From the NCBI RefSeq assembly GCF_001286805.1, contig NZ_CXYV01000002.1, positions 930,001-994,000 on the forward strand: a stretch of 64,000 nt of DNA, written 5' to 3'. The notes beneath the pieces were generated by a model. The model was not told the origin of the DNA, made no database searches, and was given only the letters and a program-made list of their open reading frames with translations. The stretch comes from Kallipyga gabonensis (GTDB lineage: Bacteria; Bacillota; Clostridia; Tissierellales; Peptoniphilaceae). Position 1 is the first letter of the stretch, and every line of letters begins with the position of its first letter. Of the stretch, positions 6,800 to 8,030 are shown one piece after another. A program made the translations under genes and the position numbers.

Positions 6800-7870
6800 C
6801 TAATCTTCAAGTTGTCGGATAGTCTTATGATCTTGGTTGGCCCGGTAGGACTGAAGGAAAGCCTGATCCTCAATTTCAAGATCTCGGAGGTCAGCCCTGG
6901 ATTCCAGGTGATGGCGAAATTCGTGGACAAGGACCTCATTGATTCGGTCTCTTAGTGCAGGGCCTGACCAGCCTCGATAAATGATCCGAAAAGAGCCATA
7001 GTAAAGATCGATCCGACGTCCCAGCTTATCTCTGACATATTGGCCCATGATGCAAAGGTCTTTGTCCCGGGCTTCAGGATGGTAGCTGACTTCCGGATGA
7101 ATTTGAACAAGTCCGTTCAGTCCATCAAAAAAAGAGGGGGGAAGGTCGTCCACTAAGTCTCGTACAATCCGGGTAAACTCATCCAGTGAAATAAAATCCT
7201 TCGGCCTGGGATCAATGGAAAAGGGAGCGATCCGTCGGGCAAGTTCAGCCAGAGGGAGGCCGATCACGTTATGAATGTCTCCTTCAATGGAGGCGACGAA
7301 TCGAGGGTCGAGGTCTTGGATGCCGTAGCCTCCCGCTTTATCCAGGACTTGACCATGAGTCAGATAGTCTTGAATGGACTCTTCCAGGTCCGGATAGTAG
7401 GGAACGAAAGTGACCGCCGTAATGGCGTAAAATGACTGGAAGCCCGAGACTGTTCGAAGGCAGACCCCGGTTACCACGTGGTGGGTTCGGCCGAAGTAGG
7501 ACCGGAACATGGTTTCCGCTTCCTCAAGATCCCGAGGCTTGTGATAAACTGATTCATCCATAAGGACCATAGTATCTGCCCCGATATAGAGACTTCCGGC
7601 CAGGGCTCCGCTTTCTTCAGGCCCTTCACCAAGACCGCATTTAGCCCCTGCTAATTCGCAGGCCGTCTTACCCACCCGGTCGATGAAATGGTCGGATCCA
7701 TAGAGGGCCATGTATCGGTATTCGATAGTTCGCTCATCCAGGTCCAGGCTCCGGCAGATGGGGTTAAGATAGGCCAGAAGTTCACGCCTTCTGGGCGACC
7801 GGCTACAGAGGACCACCCGGTCAAAACTGTCCAGGTGACCGCCATGAATGTAATCAACAATGCCGTGCAT
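6800..7870 (-). CDS. Maf nucleotide pyrophosphatase fused to zincin_1 metallopeptidase
   Basis: 356-aa, two-domain protein. Residues about 18-225 are a complete Maf/YhdE-type nucleoside triphosphate pyrophosphatase: SRSPRRRELL, then GADTMV, HKPRD and KAGGYGIQ with NVIGLPL. Such enzymes clear non-canonical or excess nucleotides and affect septum formation. Residues about 235-356 match the minimal zinc metallopeptidase family (zincin_1): IVRDLVDDLPPSFF at its start, LYYGSFRIIYRG in the middle and VHEFRHHLE with HExxH at about 316-320. These families are normally separate genes. The ATG at 7870 is preferred because AAGGGGG precedes it; an ATG seven codons upstream has no ribosome site. The gene is convergent with malQ (six bases apart). 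Confidence 0.85.
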   Translation of the reverse strand: MHGIVDYIHGGHLDSFDRVVLCSRSPRRRELLAYLNPICRSLDLDERTIEYRYMALYGSDHFIDRVGKTACELAGAKCGLGEGPEESGALAGSLYIGADTMVLMDESVYHKPRDLEEAETMFRSYFGRTHHVVTGVCLRTVSGFQSFYAITAVTFVPYYPDLEESIQDYLTHGQVLDKAGGYGIQDLDPRFVASIEGDIHNVIGLPLAELARRIAPFSIDPRPKDFISLDEFTRIVRDLVDDLPPSFFDGLNGLVQIHPEVSYHPEARDKDLCIMGQYVRDKLGRRIDLYYGSFRIIYRGWSGPALRDRINEVLVHEFRHHLESRADLRDLEIEDQAFLQSYRANQDHKTIRQLED

Positions 7871-8030
7871 AGGAAGTTCCCCCTTCTTCATTGGCTTTTA
7901 AGTCAACTTCTTCTTCTATTCTAACTGATGTGGTCTTTCCTGTTTTTGAATTTGCTCCTGAGGGTATCTACATTTTACTTCTTTTATTCTCTTTACTGCC
8001 TGAACAGGGGTATAGATCGTTGAGGTTTTT

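Follow-up and report, generated by a model that had tools for sequence, protein, structure and literature searches.

A YhdE-type Maf domain joined in one reading frame to a mini-zincin in Kallipyga and two related genera

The window analysed here, a stretch of 64,000 nucleotides from Kallipyga gabonensis, carries on its minus strand a single unbroken open reading frame that runs from 7891 to a stop at 6800 (363 aa, designated P0001) and that encodes an N-terminal Maf domain and a C-terminal mini-zincin domain on one chain (Table 1). Because a Shine-Dalgarno-like AAGGGGG lies upstream of the second Met codon, and because K. massiliensis has an Ile codon at the position of the 7891 start, such that the second Met is the earliest usual start codon there, we consider the ATG at the second Met to be the likelier start. 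The two flanking genes lie on the opposite strand, and therefore the fused gene is probably transcribed alone. Judged by eye, the genes that flank it encode an ABC transporter and a peptidase, with a glucanotransferase in between, and in K. massiliensis the fused gene is likewise flanked by ABC transporter and peptidase genes (names again by eye). The neighbours are a permease gene and a DJ-1-like gene in G015, and a GltS-like transporter gene and an aminopeptidase-like gene in G024 (all named by eye), and not a single neighbour is common to the three genera in which we have seen the fused gene.

Table 1. Positions within the window of the fused gene and of its parts
Feature	Position	Strand	Remarks
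Fused gene	6800..7870	(-)	likely start ATG 7868-7870, stop 6800-6802, 356 aa
AAGGGGG, Shine-Dalgarno-like	7879-7885	(-)	upstream of ATG 7868-7870; judged from the sequence only
Maf domain, YhdE type	7229..7819	(-)	P0001 residues 25-221; PF02545 E 3.4e-37
Linker	7196..7228	(-)	~P0001 residues 222-232, less constrained
TTHA0227-type mini-zincin domain	6830..7198	(-)	2ejq match, fold; profile A2
HEFRH (HExxH motif)	6911..6925	(-)	H323, E324, H327

The Pfam model PF02545 aligns with the window protein over profile positions 1-184 of 187 and scores 128.4 bits against a cut-off of 27, a cut-off that is also passed by 5/5 other fused proteins scanned. Residues 15-219 of an AF2 model (counted from the second Met) superimpose on Bacillus subtilis Maf (BsMaf, 4heb) with a Z of 21.3 and an rmsd of 1.8 over 181 residues, and the fold also matches that of Escherichia coli YhdE (4p0e, Z 20.9). 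As described in the accessible part of PMC3899018, all Mafs have the catalytic residues S-R-E-K-D-K, and the YhdE subfamily is marked by R-T-Q. The key residues of P0001 are S32, R34, R35, E53, K84, D106, T107, K118 and Q192; the S, R, R, E, D, T, the K82 lysine and the Q are all present in 8/8 fused proteins, and the subfamily motif is R-T-Q, not W-Q-E, in every one of them (8/8).

The position of one catalytic lysine depended on how the sequences were aligned. Two automatic alignments fill the K52 column of the fused and the related Mafs with L or I instead of K, and on this ground loss of the Maf catalytic lysine had been suspected. This loss is now doubted, because reading the stretch by eye revealed an [I/L]-x-x-[A/G/E]-K spacing before the GADT strand that is common to the fused and related Mafs and to the bridging sequences L011 and L062, and that would put an invariant lysine (K84 of P0001) at the K52 place in 8/8 fused and 12/12 related Mafs. 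We think that the S-R-E-K-D-K signature is complete in the fused proteins, with the lysine at the K52 place assigned by eye only, and NTP pyrophosphatase activity of the YhdE type is predicted from the family. Compared to B. subtilis Maf (1ex2/4heb) and E. coli YhdE (4p0e), the fused protein shares the fold, the R-T-Q motif, the residues S-R-E-D-K and, as read by eye, an invariant lysine near the K52 place, but it has ~14 extra N-terminal residues (from the second Met), its segment ahead of the GADT strand is longer, it belongs to a distinct subfamily, and it carries the C-terminal zincin.

The C-terminal part of the protein retrieved TTHA0227 (2ejq) with an E of 1.5e-8 in a single-sequence search, and a profile built from five fused proteins retrieved it with an E of 4.9e-13. 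Residues 228-329 of the AF2 model (counted from the second Met) superimpose on 2ejq with a Z of 14.9 and an rmsd of 1.5 over 97 residues, and the zincin fold also matches 3e11 (Z 9.5, with a model whose mean pLDDT is 69). The Pfam model PF06262 aligns with residues 288-330 of the window protein at 17.9 bits, below its gathering cut-off of 22.4, and scores 14.4-19.7 bits in 5/5 other fused proteins scanned, such that all of them, the window's included (6/6), fall below the cut-off. The stand-alone zincin relatives scanned with the same model both pass (2/2; 26.7 and 25.7 bits), and among 12 stand-alone zincins that PF06262 detects at E 0.001 in a sample of the class, eight are above the cut-off and four below. 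The Pfam model is weak for the whole TTHA0227-type branch seen here. On the basis that PF06262 matches in only 13/291 genomes of the class, we conducted the survey with profile A2, a zincin alignment of 20 rows that comprises 19 stand-alone sequences and the window's own; the match of A2 to the zincin of the window's genome (E 5.3e-49) is partly circular, since the profile contains that sequence.

Beyond the histidines of the HExxH motif, E330, D337 and D342 are candidate third zinc ligands. HExxH, E330 and D342 are invariant in 8/8 fused proteins, and the pattern HExxHHxE plus the final D is invariant both in 8/8 fused proteins and in 20/20 rows of A2. D337, which occupies the position of TTHA0227 D109, is D in 7/8 fused proteins and V in G024; the D109-position column is not invariant in A2, and E102 and D114 (slice numbering) are invariant there. 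The G024 protein (L041), with V at this candidate third-ligand position, keeps HExxH and is the sole such case among the eight. Compared to TTHA0227 (2ejq; a PF06262/DUF1025 mini-zincin and would-be MEROPS family M94), the fused zincin is alike in sequence, in fold and in the arrangement HExxHHLE...A...D, with a D at the TTHA0227 spacing, but it sits behind a Maf domain and scores below the PF06262 cut-off; its stand-alone relatives are mostly ~120-135 aa long. Trame 2014 writes of the family 'If proven to be a peptidase', and, in the accessible part of that paper (PMC3890501), Acel_2062 and TTHA0227 are dimers with zinc seen in neither crystal structure. Peptidase activity is a prediction for the whole PF06262 family, and we accordingly refer to the fused zincin as a putative protease.

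A preliminary description of this DNA had proposed that the gene ends at 7870 and encodes two complete domains in one frame with no stop between them, a Maf pyrophosphatase and a minimal zinc metallopeptidase, and had quoted the motifs SRSPRRRELL, KAGGYGIQ and VHEFRHHLE. All three motifs are present in the 363-aa frame, both domains are borne out by the matches given above, and 7870 is the better gene end given the ATG and the AAGGGGG upstream of it. The zinc metallopeptidase stands as a homologue of the TTHA0227 branch by sequence and fold; as a PF06262 member it falls short of the gathering cut-off.

Codon-level comparisons revealed low dN/dS ratios on both sides of the junction: 0.054 for the Maf and 0.062 for the zincin part versus K. 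massiliensis (with dS ~1.4, near saturation), 0.060 and 0.094, respectively, versus the Kallipyga genome G002, and 0.097 and 0.195 between K. massiliensis and G002. The linker and the tail are looser than the two domains in these comparisons, and the length of the linker varies among the fused proteins, that of G122 being clearly longer. The Maf half and the zincin half are both under strong purifying selection, and both are being kept. On the basis that the same continuous frame recurs in eight genomes and that dN/dS is low on both sides, the fusion is neither a chance event nor an assembly slip. We found nothing in favour of an assembly or gene-calling artefact, and the presence of the frame in three genera, free of stops and frameshifts and under codon-level selection on either side, reduces the probability of such an artefact to practically nil. 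The AF2 model of the fused protein (mean pLDDT 69, pTM 0.53) is a middling one, and as modelled the placement of the two domains relative to each other is not fixed.

To map the fusion across genomes, we used a profile of the fusion itself and found it in 8/130 family genomes among the matches listed, distributed by genus as Kallipyga 3/3, g14 1/1 and g23 4/5 among the same matches; G124 (g23, 87% complete) gave no fusion match among the matches listed. A search of 249 genomes of the order, the family's eight included, revealed no further fusion among the matches listed, and in a phylum sample of 398 genomes the fusion appeared only in the window's own genome among the matches listed, with the proviso that very diverged fusions could be missed in the family, order and phylum counts. 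The zincin profile, applied to the class sample, detected a zincin in 35/391 genomes and a fused frame only in G000 and G024; zincin-bearing frames of >300 aa were limited to these two genomes, apart from G681, where a frame of 683 aa gave a weak match. The preliminary description had called the architecture non-standard, which agrees with these counts. Within the window's genome (90% complete) we found no Maf and no zincin beyond this frame.

In g24, a genus of the family, a Maf occurs alone in nine genomes, and a further observation concerns 20 genomes of g24 (e.g. G025, G068 and G076) in which the fusion profile, applied at E 0.001, detects neither a Maf nor a zincin, both counts being among the matches listed. 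Maf also occurs in open frames of >350 aa in G010, G028, G490, G388, G575 and G478, with no zincin match in the same frame among the matches listed; Maf may be fused to something else in these cases, or the frames may simply be long. The viral contigs searched contained no relative of the fusion. Stand-alone zincins of the TTHA0227 type occur on two IMG/VR contigs, on L078 at 1995-2375, where a terminase-like gene lies on one side and a portal-like gene on the other, and on L079 at ~2001-2375, beside a portal-like gene; in both contigs the zincin is on the opposite strand (phage genes judged by eye).

The stand-alone zincins of the family have a recurrent neighbour. Stand-alone zincins are found in 61 family genomes among the matches listed, and in 51 of these a J-domain gene (J gene), located with a profile of the J-protein, lies at most 100 bases from the zincin gene; G010 provides a further case of a zincin gene adjoining a J gene. 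When stand-alone loci were reduced to 43 distinct ones by counting the same motif stretch once, 18/43 had a nearby gene whose product shows a C-terminal J domain and hydrophobic N-terminal stretches by eye, and PF00226 detected the J domain in 6/6 neighbour proteins scanned. At many of these loci the zincin and J genes share a few bases or almost abut; L009 (663-1872), L060 (1465-2693) and L064 (1489-2686) are examples of zincin and J genes next to each other. A J-protein profile matches 116/130 family genomes below E 1e-30, and the J gene is kept in 8/8 fused genomes, where it is located away from the fused gene. From this pairing we infer that the zincin and the J-domain protein may be working partners.

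We then reconstructed trees of the two domains, leaving out the duplicate Maf L054 and the repeated zincins from the 33-row Maf tree and the 35-row zincin tree and cutting stand-alone zincins to their last 130 residues. In the Maf tree the eight fused rows form one side of a branch (96/96), and the fused Mafs fall into a distinct subfamily together with stand-alone Mafs of g24, of G007/G109 and of a Streptococcus suis contig (100/98). Mafs of this subfamily, which has a longer N-terminus, stand alone in L034 (4986-5645, S. suis), in L045-L053 (g24) and in L007/L055. Within this tree the S. suis copy (L034) is the closest neighbour of the fused clade (85/95), which suggests lateral transfer. 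The fused zincins form one group both in the 35-row tree (100/99), where each of the 27 stand-alone rows falls outside their group, and in a 53-row tree (100/98), where they lean weakly (75/80) towards four zincins from other families; their placement is unsure because of their long branches. As all trees were rooted at the midpoint, the fact that one branch sets off the fused rows does not prove that they share a single origin, and one fusion event is the simplest reading of the midpoint-rooted trees.

How the two genes came together was addressed by inspecting their arrangement in relatives. The preliminary description had raised the possibility that relatives carry maf and zincin as adjacent genes, which we did not find: the two were side by side in 0/15 family genomes with both on one contig and lay 61 kb-1.5 Mb apart among the matches listed, pairs on different contigs being outside this count. 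A further candidate, that the zincin left a J pair to join Maf, is weakened by the trees, in which the J-paired zincins of the family do not enclose the fused ones. A search for a zincin remnant beside the J gene in 8/8 fused genomes yielded nothing convincing, with the contigs of G015 and G002 ending less than ~1.6 kb after J. The best match, at E 0.001, is in G122, ~2 kb from J and inside another open reading frame; that of G000, at E 0.005, is inside a neighbouring open reading frame, and the other fused loci gave 0.02 or worse, compared to 5e-87 for the control locus L060. The fused zincin could have come either from within the family, out of a J pair, or from outside by import.

Fusions that involve each of the two domain families have been described. 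Human ASMTL resembles the protein described here in that a YhdE-type Maf is joined N-terminally to another enzyme, but its partner is a methyltransferase and the protein is eukaryotic (accessible part of PMC3899018). For PF06262, the accessible part of Trame 2014 (PMC3890501) lists stand-alone proteins, fusions with TPR, and a transmembrane segment plus Septum_form in Mycobacterium tuberculosis. The latter fusions are similar to ours in that a zincin is joined to another domain, in one case a domain called septum-related, but that septum domain is not Maf, and a Maf-PF06262 architecture is not named in the text or in the legend of Fig. 5 of that paper (PMC3890501). We likewise found no description of a Maf-zincin fusion in the open-licence literature searched. 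We take the Septum_form domain of the PF06262 fusion to be PF13845. Both domains are known ones, and what is new here is their lineage-limited combination. Since the fused zincins scanned (6/6) are below the PF06262 cut-off, a listing at the cut-off would show a plain Maf, and the architecture is easily missed.

On the question of what the chain does, we consider it most likely, with a probability of roughly 0.55, that two enzymes act as independent modules on one chain, the peptidase part being putative. A zincin gene would have been placed once behind a Maf gene of the distinct subfamily, before Kallipyga and the two related genera split. The N-terminal YhdE-type Maf is predicted to hydrolyse dTTP, UTP and 5-modified pyrimidine NTPs to NMP and PPi, and a short variable linker would join it to a mini-zincin that retains HExxH. 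The two domains would then work independently of each other, with the chain providing the only Maf and the only zincin found in the genome. Taking the architecture, the intact motifs, the selection, the fold and the single group in both trees as given, a gain from tethering Maf to zincin is conceivable and is a separate, unproven proposition.

The reading as independent modules leaves that benefit open and overlaps in this respect with a neutral fusion, in which two unrelated house-keeping enzymes were joined by accident and harmlessly, with neither coupling nor a benefit of the tether. We regard such a neutral fusion as possible but not probable; in its favour, none of the 15 relatives with both genes on one contig among the matches listed has Maf and zincin side by side, and it is also in its favour that the two do not strictly co-occur (in g24, nine genomes have Maf alone and 20 have neither, among the matches listed), that the linker varies in length and that no neighbour is common to the three genera. 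On the other hand, the fusion has been kept while three genera diverged, and both of its domains have stayed under constraint, although sole-copy status alone could account for this. It is doubtful, to a greater degree, that the zincin part is a binding or dimerising module and no protease: the dimers of Acel_2062 and TTHA0227, with zinc in neither crystal structure (accessible part of PMC3890501), and the loss of D337 in G024 speak for such a role, but the invariance of HExxH, E330 and D342 in 8/8 fused proteins and the strong constraint on the domain speak against it.

Coupling between the two domains would be required if they formed a regulatory pair, in which nucleotide binding by Maf acts as a gate on the zincin, or Maf itself is what the zincin trims or destroys, with proteolysis tracking the level of pyrimidine NTPs. 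That a nucleotide-binding enzyme is covalently tied to a putative protease, with both sets of motifs intact, is consistent with this proposal, but nothing in this analysis links the two sites, or connects nucleotide cleaning or septum formation with proteolysis, the domain orientation is not fixed by the AF2 model and a rigid interface fits poorly with the variable linker; we deem it unlikely. Even less probable, in our view, is a nucleotide-responsive protease whose zincin is switched by Maf as the latter senses or consumes pyrimidine NTPs (dTTP, UTP and modified pyrimidines), a proposal that draws on the pairing of the zincin's relatives with a J-domain chaperone partner. If it were true, protein quality control would be coupled either with the cell cycle or with the state of the nucleotide pool.

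Structures of PF06262 mini-zincins have been solved, and the family has no known job. The Maf fusion in three genera and the pairing with a J-domain gene more widely in the family provide two handles on the role of mini-zincins. If two coupled activities were indeed present on the chain, the fusion would offer the first substrate context for mini-zincins as well as a new mode of Maf control.
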